Origin: Winogradskyella schleiferi
Lineage (GTDB): Bacteria; Bacteroidota; Bacteroidia; Flavobacteriales; Flavobacteriaceae
NCBI RefSeq assembly: GCF_013394655.1
Contig: NZ_CP053351.1
Span: 3,450,001 to 3,514,000, forward strand
DNA: 64,000 nt
Direction: 5' to 3'
This document shows positions 1,665 through 64,000 of the stretch, piece after piece. A model generated the notes under the pieces. The model saw nothing but the letters and a program-made list of their open reading frames with translations. It was not told where the DNA came from and searched no databases. The translations under genes were made by a program, and so were the position numbers. Numbering within the stretch: the stretch's first letter is position 1; each line of letters opens with the position of its first letter.

Positions 1665-3026
1665 TTATAGGGAAACTGCACTATACCTAATGGTTGTATT
1701 ACTTGCAGGGGTAAATGTAAATATTTGATTACTAAATGCATTAAGGGTAGTAGGTTGATCTACATATAAGCCTTCAGGATCTGCTATAACATCTATAAGC
1801 GGCTGCACAGCATCTGTAAAAAACGCTGGAACTGTGGTTCCCGTTATCGTTAAATAAACCTTGTCATCTACAATTTCTTTGCTGATATCATAAAATGCAC
1901 CACCAATGGTTGATCCAATATACAATTGACCTGTATCTAAATTCAAGTCATATAAATCAATCCTTGTAACATCAAACAGAGCTACAGAGGCATTTAAGTC
2001 ATTTACTAAATCTACGAAACATTGGTTAGTTAAATCTGGAGTCCAATCATCGCCCAAAGTATTTAAAAATGGATGATGTAAAATAAGAAACTCTCCTAAT
2101 TCCGAGTAACCTAGAATAGGTAGAACAGGGGTTACAGAATACCCTATAACAGCTGACACTCCATTTTGTGAAGCTACATATTGTATTGTTTCTGAAGTCT
2201 CATCTAAAAAGAACTCTTCTAATAGTTCACCGTCAACCTCTATACCAGGACTTACTAATATACTGTTTTCAGTAAACAGTATACCTAAATCGAATTCATC
2301 GAAAGATCCATCTAATCCAACAAATCTAGGTTCAGCGAATAAGGTAGAACCATTATAGTTAAGATTATAACCTTGCGTACCTGTACTAGAGGTAATCTCC
2401 ATAAATGAGAAAGTTCCCGATGAGCAATCATTAAAATCAAGTCTTCTCTGATAACTCTGTTGAACGCTTGCCAAACTTTCTGCATCGAAATCGGTAAAAT
2501 TAGTAGGCGTTAATGTTAACGAGGCTGTATTTCTATTTCTTACATCCCTGAAATAAATAACACCATCTTCATCTACACTAAAGTATTGAAAATTATTAGT
2601 GCCTGCATAGCCAGTACCTGTTTGTACAGGATTACCATCTGGGTCTACTGCATCTGGATTAGTACCTTCAGTAATATGATTACGTGTTGTAAATACAAGC
2701 TCTGTAGTTACATTATATCTCACATCGTAAGAGGACGTTTGAAAATCAAAATCACCATTTAGAATATCTGAAGTTTGCCTTACCGAGCCATCCTCGTTAA
2801 ATTGCATATAAAATGTAAACCCTCCTCTTTCATCATCCTTGGTGAAATACGTTGCCTTAAAGCCTTGTTGCGAAACCAACAATTGTCTAAGTTCATCTAC
2901 TCTTTCTTGGATTCTAAGTGCTGGTGGGCTATCGAATGTTTCTTCAGTAATATCATCATTACATGAAAAGGTAAATAGAAACAATAATGATAGTATCCAA
3001 TAATGTGTATAAATATTTTTTTTCAT
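1665..3026 (-). CDS. DUF4302 domain lipoprotein of SusC/SusD operon
   Basis: 453 residues. The N-terminus is a lipoprotein signal peptide with lipobox-like FTFSCND (Cys at about residue 22). The following region (ERVDELRQLLVSQQGFKATY, then a glycine-rich turn and FTFYMQFNEDGSV) matches the start of DUF4302 proteins as I know them. These are Bacteroidota lipoproteins encoded next to SusC/SusD pairs. It is the last gene of the operon, 21 bp after the metallohydrolase gene, and is followed by a strong terminator. Its position suggests a surface or periplasmic accessory of the uptake complex, perhaps substrate binding; this is inference. Confidence 0.75.
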   Translation of the reverse strand: MKKNIYTHYWILSLLFLFTFSCNDDITEETFDSPPALRIQERVDELRQLLVSQQGFKATYFTKDDERGGFTFYMQFNEDGSVRQTSDILNGDFDFQTSSYDVRYNVTTELVFTTRNHITEGTNPDAVDPDGNPVQTGTGYAGTNNFQYFSVDEDGVIYFRDVRNRNTASLTLTPTNFTDFDAESLASVQQSYQRRLDFNDCSSGTFSFMEITSSTGTQGYNLNYNGSTLFAEPRFVGLDGSFDEFDLGILFTENSILVSPGIEVDGELLEEFFLDETSETIQYVASQNGVSAVIGYSVTPVLPILGYSELGEFLILHHPFLNTLGDDWTPDLTNQCFVDLVNDLNASVALFDVTRIDLYDLNLDTGQLYIGSTIGGAFYDISKEIVDDKVYLTITGTTVPAFFTDAVQPLIDVIADPEGLYVDQPTTLNAFSNQIFTFTPASNTTIRYSAVSL

Positions 3027-3047
3027 AATAACTTTTTTAAATCGTGA

Positions 3048-4016
3048 TTAGTCGTCTATTGAATCTAACAATGCCTGATGAGCTAGTGCCTGAAGTTCAT
3101 AAAGGTCAATACCAAAATCCTGAGCAAAATATTCAACTACTATTTGTTCTTTTTCTCTAATAATATTAATAGCCTCTGTATTTATAATTCTATTTCCGTC
3201 AACATCCAATTCGTAGTCCTGAGTATCTGGATCATATATACCAATATTATTTACTAAATCATCCCATTGTTCTCTAGATCTTATCAGCATTTGTGCAATC
3301 ATCTCCACAAAATCTTCACCAGACTGGTTAGACGCATAATTAGTAATATAACCCAAACTTCTAGCCTCTTCATTAGTACGGTTAAACCATTGTGCCGTAT
3401 AATTTCCAGGATTGATAACATCAAAAGCTGTATTGTATGGTATGGTTTGATTTAGAATGTGACCATATTCATGATGCACTGTACTAATTGGACCAACTAC
3501 ACTTCTTTGAACATCAAAATCGTCAGAATCACCAATAACATCACTTTCGTAAGCAATAGTTGAGAAATCTAACTCATCTAAATTAAAAAGTGTAATTCTA
3601 GCACCTGCCTCAGCAATACCTAAAGTTATTGTTGGCACACCAGGATTATAATTAAAACCACCTGCAAGAACAAATTCTCTTGGGGCAATATTTTTTATGA
3701 AATTTTCTCCACCAACAGCATTGTATGGCTCTATCCAAACATCTAAAAGAACCTGTGCGATTTTTTCAGCATTTTCAGGAAATGGCGGGTGCAAATATCT
3801 ATTCACACTGGTATCATTTACATCCCATTGGTATTGAATATCAATATTATATGGGGCTACAAAGTTGCTTCGAAGCCATATATCGAGTTCATTAAGTATA
3901 GGAGTAGAAGTGTCTATTTGGCTACCGGACACATTATCTTCTGAGCCGTCACACCCTAATAGAGTTATAAAGACCGTTAGAAAAACTAATGGTAATATTT
4001 TAAAACGATTATTCAT
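3048..4016 (-). CDS. Substrate import-associated zinc metallohydrolase lipoprotein
   Basis: 322 residues with a lipoprotein signal peptide (lipobox LLGCDGS). A zinc-protease motif HEYGH lies in the middle (context STVHHEYGHILNQ). Length, lipidation and the location between susD and a DUF4302 gene fit the family described as substrate import-associated zinc metallohydrolase lipoproteins (TIGR04549, from memory). It probably acts at the cell surface or in the periplasm, cutting a peptide-like substrate before or after import by the SusC/SusD complex. The gene lies 32 bp after susD and 21 bp before the DUF4302 gene. The HExxH motif is seen; the substrate is unknown. Confidence 0.8.
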   Translation of the reverse strand: MNNRFKILPLVFLTVFITLLGCDGSEDNVSGSQIDTSTPILNELDIWLRSNFVAPYNIDIQYQWDVNDTSVNRYLHPPFPENAEKIAQVLLDVWIEPYNAVGGENFIKNIAPREFVLAGGFNYNPGVPTITLGIAEAGARITLFNLDELDFSTIAYESDVIGDSDDFDVQRSVVGPISTVHHEYGHILNQTIPYNTAFDVINPGNYTAQWFNRTNEEARSLGYITNYASNQSGEDFVEMIAQMLIRSREQWDDLVNNIGIYDPDTQDYELDVDGNRIINTEAINIIREKEQIVVEYFAQDFGIDLYELQALAHQALLDSIDD

Positions 4017-13630: not shown

Positions 13631-13732
13631 TAACTTTTGATATAAAACATCGAAACATATTCAAAACAATCAGCCCTCGTCTAAAAAATTAGCTATTGGT
13701 CATTTTGACCGAAAGTCTTGAAATAATGAGAG

Positions 13733-13780
<48 letters not shown>

Positions 13781-29277: not shown

Positions 29278-30120
29278 TTAAAATAAAACTGCTTTTATCG
29301 TTTTATGATAATCTTCAAACTCTATGAGGTTATTATGACCAGCACCTTCAACCGTTATAAAATTTAAGTTTTCAATATGTAATTCTGAAAGTTTCTTTCC
29401 AGAAGCGTAAGGCACGACGCCATCATCAGTGCCATGAATAATTGTGATTGGACATTTTGTTTTGAGTAAATATTGATGGGTAGGAAAATGATACTTCAGC
29501 AATTGTTTTACAGGAAGTATAGGAAATCGATCTTTCGCCACATCCAGAATACTGTAATAAGGTGTTTCTAAAATCAGCTGCTTTGGATTATTTTTTGAAG
29601 CTAAATATGATGCAATTCCTGTTCCTAAAGATCTTCCGTGAAGTGTGATTTGTTTTTCAGCATAGTGATTTAACAAATAGTCATAACAAAACTGGGCATC
29701 ACTGTAAAGTGCCGCTTCACTTAACTTTCCGGTACTTTTCCCGTAAGTTCTGTAATCCATAATCAGCACATCGTAATTCAAGTCCACAAAATATTCGGCA
29801 ATGGTTCCCCAACGACTCAAATCGCCAGCGTTTCCATGAAAATAAAGGATAACGCCCTGCCTGTCCGACAGGCAGGCTTTTGGATTTTCCAGCTTAAAAT
29901 GAAGGGCGTTTATCGTTGTGTTCTCATCAGTTTTTAGAAATAACTCTTCAAAATTATGATTGAACTGATAGTTGTAATCTTGCTCTAAAGTCGTTGGCAA
30001 AAACAATAACTTTTCCTGAAAAAAATAAAGTGCAGATGCTATCATAATATATAAACCCAAAAGTACAATGATGAACTTTTTAAGCCTTCTTTTTAGTGGT
30101 TTTCGAATTGTGGATAACAT
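29278..30120 (-). CDS. Membrane-anchored alpha/beta hydrolase (copy 2 of tandem pair)
   Basis: 280 residues. A basic N-terminus is followed by one membrane helix (FIIVLLGLYIMIASALYFF, about 17-35), then an ABHD12/13/17-like hydrolase domain. HGNAGDLSRWG oxyanion region, nucleophile GRSLG (LHGRSLGTGIA), Asp in HGTDDGVVPY and His in EGAGHNNLIEF complete the catalytic triad. The start at 30120 overlaps the end of the upstream paralogue by 41 bp; later Met codons would remove the anchor. Residues about 82-88 (ACLSDRQ) are encoded by an exact 21-bp palindrome absent from the adjacent paralogue. Likely an esterase or thioesterase at the inner membrane; substrate unknown. Confidence 0.85.
   Translation of the reverse strand: MLSTIRKPLKRRLKKFIIVLLGLYIMIASALYFFQEKLLFLPTTLEQDYNYQFNHNFEELFLKTDENTTINALHFKLENPKACLSDRQGVILYFHGNAGDLSRWGTIAEYFVDLNYDVLIMDYRTYGKSTGKLSEAALYSDAQFCYDYLLNHYAEKQITLHGRSLGTGIASYLASKNNPKQLILETPYYSILDVAKDRFPILPVKQLLKYHFPTHQYLLKTKCPITIIHGTDDGVVPYASGKKLSELHIENLNFITVEGAGHNNLIEFEDYHKTIKAVLF
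29856..29876. repeat. In-frame 21-bp palindrome inside hydrolase gene
   Basis: Arms CCTGCCTGTC and GACAGGCAGG flank a single central base, 21 bp in all, exactly seven codons. The adjacent paralogue goes directly from Lys to Gly-Val at this place (ESKGVVLY versus NPK-seven residues-GVILY). The GC content (14 of 21) stands out from the AT-rich gene. Confidence 0.85.
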
Positions 30121-30958
30121 TGATACTTGTGGTTTCTAAGTCGATGGTTTTGGGTTCGCTATTCAAAATATCATCTAGCATATTGTGATAAGATTCAAAA
30201 TTATTCAAATTTTTATGTCCACCTTCAATAACCGTATGCATTTTTGTAAGCTTTGGGTTAATCTGTGCTAATTTTACACTCGATTTATAGGGAATCAACT
30301 TATCGTGCGTACCATGAATAATATGAATTGGGCATTGTACATATTTTAGCCATTTGTAAGTTGGCAACGGGTATTTAATCAATAAGGACAATGGCATAAA
30401 GGGCATGTAGCGTGCCGTAACTTTGGTTAAACTATAATAAGGCGCATCTAAAATTAATAGTTTTGGATGATTCATGGATGCCAACTTCGCCGCAAAACCA
30501 GAACCTAAAGAACGACCATAAAGGATAATTCGGTCTTCAGTGGTTTGCTTTTTAATTTCATCATAAACCAATTGTAAATCGCGCTTTATGGCTTTTTGAG
30601 AACGCTTCCCTGTGCTTTTTCCGAAACCACGATAATCTACCATCAACACATTATAACCATGTCTCGTAAAATCGACCGCAAACTTTCCCCAACCTTTGAT
30701 GCTTTTTGAATTTCCTTTGAGATACAACACCACACCTTTACTTTCACCATTAGGAAAAAAGCGTAAACCGTTAATAATGGCGCCATCCCTTGTTTCTAAA
30801 TTATACTCTTTGGTATCTTGGTTTTCATAATCGAATTGAAAATCCTTAGTCAGTTTTTCGGGCTTAAAAAGCATATAATCTTGCAGATAATAAAGCGCAA
30901 TGCTAATCGCTAAATAAATGGCTAAGATTAAGATTATGATTGAAATCCAGTACGTCAT
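30080..30958 (-). CDS. Membrane-anchored alpha/beta hydrolase (copy 1 of tandem pair)
   Basis: About 292 residues from the ATG at 30958, which starts the membrane helix directly (MTYWISIIILILAIYLAISI); an ATG 11 codons upstream (30991) is an alternative. Same architecture as its neighbour: helix, then hydrolase core with GVVLYLKGNSKSIKGWGKF, nucleophile GRSLGSGFA, HGTHDKLIPY and EGGHKNLNNF. The oxyanion HG is KG here (LKGN), a change from the neighbour's HGN. The pair arose by tandem duplication. Substrate unknown. Confidence 0.82.
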   Translation of the reverse strand: MTYWISIIILILAIYLAISIALYYLQDYMLFKPEKLTKDFQFDYENQDTKEYNLETRDGAIINGLRFFPNGESKGVVLYLKGNSKSIKGWGKFAVDFTRHGYNVLMVDYRGFGKSTGKRSQKAIKRDLQLVYDEIKKQTTEDRIILYGRSLGSGFAAKLASMNHPKLLILDAPYYSLTKVTARYMPFMPLSLLIKYPLPTYKWLKYVQCPIHIIHGTHDKLIPYKSSVKLAQINPKLTKMHTVIEGGHKNLNNFESYHNMLDDILNSEPKTIDLETTSINVIHNSKTTKKKA

Positions 30959-31390
30959 ATCAATATCAGAATACTTTTTTAAAGATAACAAAAATTAATG
31001 CTTATACATATTTCATAAAAACATCAGCAAAAGGATCTTGATTAACGACCATATAATAAATTAAGGCGCCAAGCCATCTATGAACAAACCCATGCACATA
31101 TATTTTCTTTGCTTTTAAATTTATATCCATAGAATAAAGCCAATATAAAAATCCCACACATTAATCACAGTGGTAAGATTAGCTTAAGGAAAATTGAAAA
31201 TCATATGTTCTGAAATTTTTTTGTAGCTGTATATCATATATGTTGACCAAAGCCAGCGTAAATTAGGATATCTGTAACAACGTTAGAACTACTAAATCCG
31301 TAATGTTAAATTTATTGTTAAAAACAGATGACTTATTAAACGTTTCAGATCGTCATCTGTCTAAACCAGTATAACATAAATTATAAAAAG
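30959..31390. other. Intergenic region with small open frame and inverted repeat
   Basis: 432 bp. On the minus strand a 42-codon frame (31002-31130; MDINLKAKKIYVHGFVHRWL then GALIYYMVVNQDPFADVFMK) reads like a protein end and may be a gene remnant, but no family was recognised. ACAGATGAC (31324-31332) and GTCATCTGT (31352-31360) form a 9-bp inverted repeat with a 19-nt spacer, 31 bp before the gene at 31391. It may be an operator or a hairpin in the leader. Confidence 0.4.
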
Positions 31391-45465: not shown

Positions 45466-47513
45466 TGCAGACTACAACGTTATCATTCAAAGATCAAATA
45501 CTAGCTGGTATTCCTAATAGTTTACCAGAGCCTAAACCTTTTGATGTTTCAATAAATCACGCTCCTAAACGTAAAGCTATTCTATCTGAAGAGGAAGAAA
45601 AATTAGCCTTAAAAAATGCCTTACGTTATTTTGACAAAAAACATCACAAAACCTTATTGCCAGAATTTAAGAATGAATTGGATACTTATGGTCGTATTTA
45701 CATGTATCGCTTAAGACCCGATTATAAAATGTATGCACGTCCAATTTCAGCATATCCTGCAAAATCTAAACAAGCCGCAGCCATTATGCTGATGATTCAG
45801 AATAATTTGGATCATGCCGTAGCACAACATCCGCACGAATTGATTACTTATGGTGGGAATGGTGCTGTGTTTTCAAATTGGGCACAATACCGCTTAACCA
45901 TGAAATATCTGGCGGAAATGAATGACCAGCAAACCTTAGTGATGTATTCTGGTCATCCTATGGGATTGTTTCCTTCTCACAAACAAGCACCAAGGGTTGT
46001 CGTCACAAATGGCATGATGATTCCTAACTATTCCAAACCAGATGATTGGGAAAAATTCAACGCTCTTGGTGTGACGCAATATGGTCAAATGACAGCTGGA
46101 AGCTATATGTATATTGGGCCACAAGGCATTGTACATGGTACAACAATAACGGTTCTAAATGGTTTCAGGAAAATTAACAAAGAGCCCAAAGGGAATTTAT
46201 TTGTAACTTCAGGATTAGGAGGCATGTCTGGTGCCCAACCTAAAGCTGGAAATATTGCGGGTTGTATCACAGTTTGTGCAGAAGTCAATCCTAAAATCAC
46301 ACAAGTTCGAATAGATCAAGGTTGGATTGACGAAAAAATTACCGATTTAGATCATCTTGTTGTAAGAGTAAATAAAGCTAAAGCTGAAAAAGAAACCATT
46401 TCCATTGCTTACTTAGGAAACATAGTGGATGTATGGGAAAAATTTGATGAAGCTAATATCCATATCGACTTAGGAAGCGATCAAACATCGCTTCATAATC
46501 CATGGGCAGGAGGTTACTATCCAGTTGACATGTCTTTTGAAGAGGCTAATGAAATGATGGCAAGTCAACCCGAATTATTTAAAGAAAAAGTTCAAGAAAC
46601 TTTACGTCGTCATGCGGATGCGATTAATAAACACACCGCAAAAGGTACTTATTTCTTTGATTATGGAAATGCCTTTCTACTCGAAGCATCACGTGCAGGA
46701 GCTGCCATTTACAAAGATTCAACAGGAAATTTTGTTAGCAAATCTACCCTCTCTTCCCTTGGGGAAGAGACCGAGAGATGGGCATATCCTAGTTATGTCC
46801 AGGATATTATGGGACCTATGTGTTTTGATTATGGTTTTGGGCCATTCCGTTGGGTTTGCGCTTCGGGAAAACCAGAAGATTTAACAAAAACTGATGAGAT
46901 TGCTTGCCAAGTTTTAGAGGATATCAAAAAGAATTCGCCTGAAGAAATTCAGCAGCAAATGGCAGACAATATTCAATGGATTAAAGGCGCACAAGAAAAC
47001 AAACTCGTCGTAGGTTCACAAGCCAGAATCCTTTATGCAGATGCCGAAGGCCGAATGAAAATAGCAGAAGCCTTTAACCAAGCCATTGCAGATAATGAAA
47101 TTGGAACGGTAATTTTAGGTAGAGATCATCACGATGTTTCAGGTACCGATTCGCCATACCGAGAAACGAGTAATATTTATGATGGCTCACGTTTTACGGC
47201 AGATATGGCGATCCACAATGTTATTGGAGATAGTTTTAGAGGCGCAACTTGGGTCAGTATTCATAACGGCGGAGGTGTTGGTTGGGGAGAAGTAATTAAT
47301 GGTGGTTTTGGTATGGTTCTTGATGGTACTAAAGAGGCATCAAACCGGTTAAAACAAATGCTGTTTTGGGACGTTAACAACGGAATTTCAAGACGCAGTT
47401 GGGCGAGAAATGAAGGAGCCATATTTGCGATAAAACGTGCTATGGCATCAGAACCTAACTTAAAAGTAACCTTGCCAAATTATGTGGATGATGATTTATT
47501 AGAATATTTATAA
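45465..47513 (+). CDS. hutU: Urocanate hydratase
   Basis: 682 residues. Urocanase turns urocanate into imidazolone propionate in histidine breakdown. The sequence shows TYGGNGAVFSNWAQYRLTM, YSGHPMGLFPS, GQMTAGSYMYIGPQGIVHGT, TSGLGGMSGAQPKAG (NAD-binding loop), DQTSLHNPWAGGYYPVDMSF and SIHNGGGVGWGEVINGGFGM, all typical. It is slightly longer than the roughly 660 residues I expect in Bacteroidota. The excess falls at about residues 417-438, where a palindromic repeat is inserted in frame (46748-46783). No other hut genes are in the window. Confidence 0.95.
   Translation: MQTTTLSFKDQILAGIPNSLPEPKPFDVSINHAPKRKAILSEEEEKLALKNALRYFDKKHHKTLLPEFKNELDTYGRIYMYRLRPDYKMYARPISAYPAKSKQAAAIMLMIQNNLDHAVAQHPHELITYGGNGAVFSNWAQYRLTMKYLAEMNDQQTLVMYSGHPMGLFPSHKQAPRVVVTNGMMIPNYSKPDDWEKFNALGVTQYGQMTAGSYMYIGPQGIVHGTTITVLNGFRKINKEPKGNLFVTSGLGGMSGAQPKAGNIAGCITVCAEVNPKITQVRIDQGWIDEKITDLDHLVVRVNKAKAEKETISIAYLGNIVDVWEKFDEANIHIDLGSDQTSLHNPWAGGYYPVDMSFEEANEMMASQPELFKEKVQETLRRHADAINKHTAKGTYFFDYGNAFLLEASRAGAAIYKDSTGNFVSKSTLSSLGEETERWAYPSYVQDIMGPMCFDYGFGPFRWVCASGKPEDLTKTDEIACQVLEDIKKNSPEEIQQQMADNIQWIKGAQENKLVVGSQARILYADAEGRMKIAEAFNQAIADNEIGTVILGRDHHDVSGTDSPYRETSNIYDGSRFTADMAIHNVIGDSFRGATWVSIHNGGGVGWGEVINGGFGMVLDGTKEASNRLKQMLFWDVNNGISRRSWARNEGAIFAIKRAMASEPNLKVTLPNYVDDDLLEYL
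46748..46783. repeat. In-frame palindromic repeat inside hutU
   Basis: CTCTTCCC (46752-46759), TTG, GGGAAGAG (46763-46770) form an 8-bp perfect stem flanked by CCCTCT and CGAGAGATGGG. Encodes STLSSLGEETERW, between GNFVSK and AYPSYVQDIMG. Similar DNA lies at 61115-61131. The urocanase family normally runs almost directly from the LLEASRAGA helix into YPSYVQDIMGP. Confidence 0.65.
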
Positions 47514-48099: not shown

Positions 48100-48120
48100 T
48101 ATACAATTGAATTACAACAA

Positions 48121-48151
48121 AAAGAGCATCGATTAATCGATGCTCTTTTTG
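48121..48151 (+). terminator. Terminator after the DUF4136 gene
   Basis: AAAGAGCATCGA (48121-48132), TTAA, TCGATGCTCTTT (48137-48148) and further T: a perfect 12-bp stem 21 bp past the stop codon. Confidence 0.9.
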
Positions 48152-48188
48152 TTTCTATCATTCGCATAGTGTTTAAATCTAAATACTA

Positions 48189-62231: not shown

Positions 62232-62285
62232 CCTACAAGCTTTCGTTTTGGTGACTGAGCTTAGTCGAAGTCAAAACCTTGTAGG
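62232..62285. repeat. Hairpin repeat in paaE leader
   Basis: CCTACAAG (62232-62239) and CTTGTAGG (62278-62285) form the outer arms, with GTTTTG/CAAAAC as inner arms. The tip contains GACTGAGCTTAGTCGAAGTC (62253-62272), 17 of 20 identical to the segment inside paaA at 63731-63750. Confidence 0.65.
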
Positions 62286-63494: not shown

Positions 63495-63588
63495 GGGCGT
63501 TACTCTACTTCGCTAAAGAGCTTCGTAGAGTCGGGCTTTCCGCTATATCTTTTTTGATAAAAAAAGGAGCCGCTACAATCCCTAACGC
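63495..63588. repeat. MITE-like intergenic repeat between paaE and paaA
   Basis: 94 bp bounded by inverted GCGTTA (in GGGCGTTAC) and TAACGC (in CCTAACGC). Inner hairpins: ACTCTAC/GTAGAGT (63502-63508 with 63525-63531) and CTTTTTT/AAAAAAAG (63549-63566). It includes TCGGGCTTTCCGC and CCGCTACAATCCC, which I recognise from a repeat common in Bacteroidota genomes. No transposase is encoded. Confidence 0.7.
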
Positions 63589-63701
63589 ACTTGTCTGCCA
63601 ACAATAGGCAATATCAGAAACCTTTAATTATTTGCTAAGGTTTAAAAAGAAGTTCAACAAGCTGAAGGCTAAAAGCCAACAGCTAAAAGCTTAGAAAAAA
63701 A

Positions 63702-64000
63702 ATGAGTGAAGAACAAATAAAAAATTTAGAGGCTGAGCACAGTCGAAGTCTAGAAGAACAATTCGAGGCACGTATCGCAAGAGACGAAAAAATCGAACCG
63801 AAAGATTGGATGCCAGAAAAATATCGTAAGACACATATTCGTCAAATGTCGCAACATGCACATTCCGAAATTGTAGGTATGCTTCCCGAAGGCAATTGGA
63901 TAACGCGCGCACCTTCATTACGACGAAAAGTAGCGTTATTGGCAAAAGTGCAAGATGAAGCTGGTCACGGTTTATATTTATATTCAGCAACCGAAACTTT
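63702..64000 (+). CDS. paaA: 1,2-phenylacetyl-CoA epoxidase subunit A, 3' end cut by window
   Basis: The first 99 codons are present. PaaA is the catalytic diiron subunit of the phenylacetyl-CoA epoxidase. [40 protein letters not shown] and [17 protein letters not shown] are strongly conserved; the DEAGH carries diiron ligands. Residues about 10-16 (AEHSRSL) are encoded by a repeat-like segment (63731-63750) and are unusual for the N-terminus. It begins 263 bp after paaE, across a repeat. Confidence 0.94.
63731..63750. repeat. In-frame repeat segment inside paaA
   Basis: GGCTGAGCACAGTCGAAGTC is 17 of 20 identical to the tip of the hairpin at 62253-62272 in the paaE leader. It encodes AEHSRS and sits between NLE and LEEQFEARI; the reading frame is kept. 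Confidence 0.65.

Follow-up and report, generated by a model that had tools for sequence, protein, structure and literature searches.

In-frame insertion of palindromic DNA is best known from Rickettsia, whose palindromic elements (RPEs) were reportedly described by Ogata in 2000 and 2002. The small dispersed repeats (SDRs) of cyanobacteria, the subject of work by Elhai in 2008, are said to be hairpin-forming sequences of 21-27 nt that insert into one another and are embedded in heptameric repeats. To our knowledge, SDRs are confined to cyanobacteria and in-frame coding insertion is not a theme of the work on them. MITEs carry terminal inverted repeats, are associated with target duplications, and are longer than the element described below.

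RPEs are given as approximately 150 bp in length and as originating from Rickettsia in the portion of a review drawn on here, which treats MITEs alongside them (PMC10969869). GTAG- and CGTC-tagged REPs are palindromes of 20-40 bp that sometimes lie inside open reading frames (ORFs), including those of repair genes, and the same text, as far as the portion used here goes, documents intragenic palindromes outside Rickettsia (PMC3733652). REPINs are described, in an extract of their source, as REP doublets that occur with RAYTs (PMC3116915); the work of Elhai is cited there as well. A previous sequence-only reading of the DNA analyzed here knew of no description of in-frame palindromes for flavobacteria. 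Because intragenic palindromes are already known outside Rickettsia (PMC3733652, in the portion cited), the novelty is narrower than that reading implied. Our searches of the openly licensed PMC literature found no paper for LPAGQAG, PAGQAG, AERSRS, or the CCTGCCTGCCGGACAGGCAGG version, which is not proof of absence, and searches for palindromes with flavobacteria or Bacteroidetes returned nothing naming the element, judged by the listings for all but PMC3733652.

The window (the whole stretch of 64,000 nucleotides that was analyzed) is part of a 4.56-Mb single-contig genome (G000:C1:3450001-3514000), and its features are collected in Table 1. The earlier reading had pointed to an exact palindrome of seven codons in one of two tandem hydrolases. 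The palindrome, here termed type A, is indeed perfect, with 10-bp arms around one central base, and its seven codons are read on the minus strand. Also as described, the segment is GC-rich in AT-rich DNA (71% G+C versus 35% across the window), and the adjoining paralog lacks the seven residues, with Lys joined directly to Gly-Val at the insertion point. In an AlphaFold model of the hydrolase (mean pLDDT 83.6), the inserted residues 82-88 lie between strands 69-75 and 90-95, and mean pLDDT is 64 in block 81-90.

Table 1. Features of the window and their positions (position 1 is the first base of the window; G011 is the sister genome).
Feature	Position	Strand	Description
Type A palindrome, 21 bp	29856..29876	.	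In-frame insertion, ACLSDRQ; exact sequence CCTGCCTGTCCGACAGGCAGG
Alpha/beta hydrolase gene with insertion, 280 aa	29278..30120	-	ORF; Pfam Abhydrolase_1/Hydrolase_4
Adjoining hydrolase paralog without insertion	30080..30991	-	ORF comparison
Peptide spanning the insertion in the window hydrolase			ENPKACLSDRQGVIL
hutU palindrome-like stretch	46748..46783	+	Variable loop; rejected as support
Intergenic type B copy	62255..62270	+	CTGAGCTTAGTCGAAG; also in G011 save one core base
paaA (phenylacetyl-CoA epoxidase subunit A)	63702..64000	+	Runs past window edge; full 326 aa in L029
Type B element in paaA	63726..63749	+	Core CTGAGCACAGTCGAAG at 63733-63748; in frame as LEAEHSRS after MSEEQIKN

The 21-mer very probably represents a single copy of a mobile micro-element that is REP-like and non-autonomous, and our best reading is that this element works like RPEs, to which it need not belong. 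The arms alone are not very rare: base composition predicts 0.14 palindromes of this kind for the window, and two odd-centered ones are present. This, together with the uniqueness of the exact copy in the genome, is what could be said for an origin by slippage or mutation at a hydrolase loop that tolerates change. We regard such a chance origin as very improbable, given that unrelated genes from other phyla carry identical or near-identical 21-mers in frame and that a reversed-pattern control returned zero. The palindrome stands above chance because it is an exact 21-bp gain relative to homologs and because it recurs elsewhere.

The best 120 of 4,618 hydrolase homologs included the window's own protein. 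ACLSDRQ is missing from the other 119 (119/119), each of which runs directly to the next aligned residue; one of them (P0099) carries a different insertion just upstream of the type A site. At the DNA level, 29 loci were fetched from elsewhere in the genus, and the 21 bp are lacking at all 28 sites that could be read. The alignment with orthologs that the sequence-only reading had proposed thus shows the seven residues to be missing elsewhere. Retention of an ancestral part of the hydrolase that other lineages lost is the least probable of the explanations weighed, since these 119 homologs and the paralog all lack the insert and no point was found in its favor. The sister genome, G011, is the closest among the sampled genus genomes as judged by the hydrolase gene, and its alignment with the window at this site contains a single 21-bp gap. 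On the coding strand, AAAG|GC in G011 corresponds to AAAG, the 21 bp, and GC in the window, and comparison with this empty site reveals no target duplication. The hydrolase insertion is a clean 21-bp gain.

A genome-wide search, with a single occurrence counting against mobility, had also been proposed, and its outcome was divided. Taken literally, CCTGCCTGTCCGACAGGCAGG occurs once in the whole genome (reversed-pattern control, 0). A looser type A pattern was found at 12 distinct places, that is, approximately 11 weaker look-alikes beside the exact copy; some of these are chance matches, since the control also yielded one. Because the exact 21-mer occurs only once, the case rests on the weaker relatives here and on the exact or near-exact copies in other genomes.

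The same genome contains 20 exact copies of a second repeat, type B (CTGAGCGNAGTCGAAG), which is only imperfectly palindromic. Five of these copies lie inside ORFs of at least 100 aa, all in the same frame and encoding AE(R/Q/H)SRS, and the other 15 do not. Two A-like sites (L005 and L013) are each in the center of a type B repeat, an arrangement with a chance probability of approximately 8e-9 under a rough model that takes 22 B sites and the nine better copies resembling type A. In G011, type A likewise occupies the center of a type B repeat (3296214-3296217) where the window's genome has an uninterrupted B-like repeat, a difference of 21 bp. Type A is also centered in other palindromes at L174, L227, and L183, and an Andersenbacteria locus (L177) contains one larger repeat both without type A and with type A at two places, the addition being 21 bp in each case. 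At positions 2200-3245 of that locus, a heptosyltransferase ORF carries composite repeats (PSYEG...SPLSKGEK) in frame, with type A nested in these larger elements.

Type A (consensus CCTGCCTGYCNGRCAGGCAGG) is rare in the window's family: the strict pattern was found at seven places in 6 of 299 family genomes, the window's genome included. In named genomes at least 117 stretches were identified. Eighty records were listed by name, 73 of them labeled as MAGs, and the 107 readable loci hold 109 copies. These are distributed among Bacteroidota, Omnitrophota, Patescibacteria, Nitrospirae, Proteobacteria, and other phyla; occurrence of the same 21-mer across phyla overturns the earlier framing of the palindrome as a flavobacterial matter. 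In 15 genomes picked for holding type A, the copies numbered 19, 4, 7, 16, 8, 10, 15, 9, 5, 3, 1, 1, 1, 1, and 1, with none for the reversed pattern; the 16 copies were in a genome of 0.9 Mb. All multi-copy genomes in this set are MAGs, and the three isolates in it (L175, L183, and L215) have one copy each. One pair is directly tandem (G357:C107), and copies are otherwise mostly single. A viral collection yielded 11 stretches in 10 contigs, and phage are not favored as the vehicle because copies in viral contigs are so few.

More than half of the copies (58 of 109) lie inside ORFs of at least 120 aa and are bordered there by 25 aa or more in both directions. With loci from the family search added, 61 type A-bearing ORFs were read, and 60 of the proteins were scanned with Pfam; 52 had a match at 1e-8 or better and eight did not. 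Type A falls inside a single Pfam domain match in 27 of the 60, among them TilS, MetRS, LeuRS, FolD, SufE, AroA, Tgt, GrpE, RadA, RibD, glutamate dehydrogenase, and ribonucleotide reductase. In alignments with PDB structures, the type A site coincides with a gap of 6 residues in RadA and of 7 residues in each of AroA, FolD, and SufC; in FabG, type A is within an unaligned stretch longer than seven residues.

The two main versions of type A contain no stop codon in any of the six frames, and the codons at the edges of an insertion (NNC, NCC, GGN, and GNN) can never be stops, as each has either C as its last base or G as its first. Since 21 bp amount to seven codons, this means that an insertion can neither shift the frame nor end translation. 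The reading phase of type A in the 61 ORFs is biased (35:13:13, p = 0.0004), favoring LPAGQAG-like peptides, and the domain subset is also uneven (15:7:5, p = 0.04). This bias fits selection after insertion. Copies in genes would persist where the extra heptapeptide lands in a tolerant loop, and the inserted peptide itself is probably without function.

The flanks of the 109 copies reveal a weak target rule. Position -1 is G in 56 and T in four, +1 is A in six, and none of the eight positions to the left or right has a fixed base. Three copies lie between perfect direct repeats of at least 4 bp (approximately one expected), an outer stem score of at least 8 was obtained for four copies (0.2-0.36 expected), and period-7 flanks were detected at four copies and at none in the control. 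The excess of outer stems is modest, and that of nesting involves few copies.

Where empty sites are readable, type A has been gained as exactly 21 bp without target-site duplication; it recurs across phyla and lies within conserved genes and within other repeats. We infer that type A moves as a single-stranded hairpin and that an enzyme acting in trans presumably inserts it into replicating DNA, at loops or gaps. An HUH/Y1 tyrosine transposase is the leading guess for that enzyme, albeit a weak and rather doubtful one. Points that weigh against the mobile-element reading are the rarity of type A in the family, the MAG label of most records and of every multi-copy genome, the single exact copy in the window's genome, the weakness of the target rule, the small number of nested copies, and the outcome of the following search for a linked enzyme.

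To look for such a partner, we examined 41 loci that represent all 42 Y1_Tnp matches listed in 60 genomes of the genus, with approximately 1.5 kb on either side and fewer bases at contig ends. No A-like site was present near the Y1 gene at any of these 41 loci. In the 15 type A-bearing genomes, two of 53 Y1 loci (all matches listed) had an A-like site, each on one side only: one at L318, one mismatch from the main version and 429 bp from the locus center, and a weak one at L340, 1,360 bp from the center. Many of the Y1 genes tested are flanked on both sides by another palindrome (e.g., the D type around L034; also L405, L406, L412, and L416), and the test had power because such palindromes do flank Y1 genes on both sides. 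L034 (G000:C1:3988101), the only Y1_Tnp gene of the window's genome, was rejected as the partner of type A; the palindrome that flanks it on either side is a different one (GCACTCGTCGGAGACGAGCGC or a near copy). Across the 94 loci examined, no Y1 gene could be tied to type A. When Y1 proteins were searched by BLAST against ORFs near type A, one locus (L201) was recovered.

These data bear on two further explanations. Type A could be the classical REP of one particular RAYT transposase that spreads it within each genome. Its size, G+C-rich hairpin, and intragenic copies recall REPs (PMC3733652, in the portion cited), Y1_Tnp is present in 14 of the 15 type A-bearing genomes (the exception is Muricauda G370, without a match), and other palindromes do accompany Y1 genes. 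We nevertheless consider this unlikely, as neither a GTAG nor a CGTC tetranucleotide is at an end of type A and A-like sites are at none of the genus Y1 loci and at only two in type A-bearing genomes. Alternatively, ordinary repair might capture 21-nt hairpin fragments, from self-complementary DNA or reverse-transcribed RNA, where DNA is broken or a fork has stalled; no transposase would be involved, and the fragments would spread by uptake and recombination. The lack of target duplication at the sites read, the weak target rule, insertion of some copies at palindrome centers where fork stalling is expected, the single copies in several genomes, and the absence of a linked Y1 gene are all in keeping with such capture. 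However, for captured fragments the sequence varies remarkably little between phyla, and the presence of 19 copies in one genome and of 16 in another of 0.9 Mb implies that amplification took place; capture is a possible but doubtful account.

A mobile micro-element, as preferred here, shares features with several described systems. Like RPEs, type A is a palindrome inserted in frame in unrelated genes that stay open, and several families coexist in one genome; the likeness to RPEs drawn by the sequence-only reading holds to this extent but fails on size (a net gain of 21 bp versus approximately 150 bp). Compared by description only, type A further differs in being found across phyla and in being incapable of introducing a stop or a frameshift, whereas RPEs are from Rickettsia. 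Type A resembles SDRs, by their description, in its length within 21-27 nt, its hairpin potential, its nesting in other small repeats, and its period-7 flanks (4/109 versus 0), but it is cross-phylum and in coding frames. It differs from GTAG- and CGTC-tagged REPs in having neither tag at an end of the 21-mer, and from the former also in not being tied to the Y1/RAYT genes examined. Like REPINs it is miniature, non-autonomous, palindromic DNA, although its copies are mostly single and REPINs are doublets. MITEs are also non-autonomous and are known to form intragenic fusions, but type A lacks target-site duplications and its empty sites gain exactly 21 bp.

Tentatively, and as a possibility worth serious attention, we propose that type A ranks with the smallest known mobile DNAs, moving between phyla without its own transposase and homing to the centers of hairpins and other repeats. 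As its sequence closes no reading frame, it would spread through essential genes and add heptapeptides to bacterial proteins at a steady pace. If aminoacyl-tRNA synthetases, RadA, SufC, FolD, GrpE, and ribonucleotide reductase are hit in frame by a 21-bp element in several phyla, that element would quite generally give rise to small protein insertions and also to misread 'lineage-specific' indels. The questions posed are what moves 21 bp without coding content and why the sequence is frame-proof.

The sequence-only reading had generalized from the hydrolase to short palindromes inserting in frame in this genome, citing two further stretches. The one at 63731-63750 held up: it is a real in-frame insertion of type B, and PaaA reads MSEEQIKN[LEAEHSRS]LEEQF. 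Among the best 120 PaaA homologs, 110 have no insertion at this site and 10 have one, which in a single case is shorter by a residue; this patchy distribution reflects either transfer or repeated hits. The other stretch, in HutU, was rejected as a third in-frame insertion, as the loops of other species differ in length, some have closely similar protein sequence, and the stretch is common to the window and G011. At the level of the genus, a sigma factor of G011 carries a 15-bp palindrome (CCGATAGCTATCGGA) in frame close to its start, and this palindrome or a variant core is present at the site in 5 of 30 genus loci read (L342-L371). A porin-like protein of G011 has a 24-bp element in frame near its start that encodes VLSQAEG (1 of 11 loci read; 12 found) and is related by eye to L019. 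The generalization thus applies to type A and the sigma-factor palindrome, but type B is only imperfectly palindromic and the 24-bp element is not a good palindrome. Type B in TsaC coincides with only a short gap in a PDB alignment, which is suggestive of an insertion.

In a sampled comparison of the window's genome with G011 (263,769 aligned columns in 48 segments), there were 57 gaps of 10-80 bp. Fifteen were in ORFs, 10 of these being multiples of three, and the majority of the gaps shown are not good palindromes. At L278, L281, L288, and L290, a long Y1 frame has a CAAGGTTTNNNAAACCTTG-type palindrome in frame in mid-ORF. In L281, the only one of these examined with Pfam, Y1_Tnp is fused to coproporphyrinogen III oxidase in one ORF, with the palindrome between the two domains. 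These mid-ORF palindromes strengthen the general point of in-frame palindrome insertion.

Several minor observations were made in the course of this work. Y1 (RAYT-like) frames of 490-530 aa occur at those four loci and at other Winogradskyella loci, with CAAGGTTT...AAACCTTG palindromes near the start and, in the four, also in mid-frame. The N-terminus of the sigma factor (L342-L371) has palindromes with differing cores at one site, as if repeatedly hit or rewritten. Window positions 63500-64000 are 99% identical to G011, most large aligned segments being approximately 85-95% identical, which suggests that the paa region may have been transferred recently. A run of A at approximately 13731-13773 is about 43 longer than in G011, from slippage or as an assembly artifact. 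Finally, positions 48116-48153 form a perfect 38-bp palindrome (AACAAAAAGAGCATCGATT/AATCGATGCTCTTTTTGTT).
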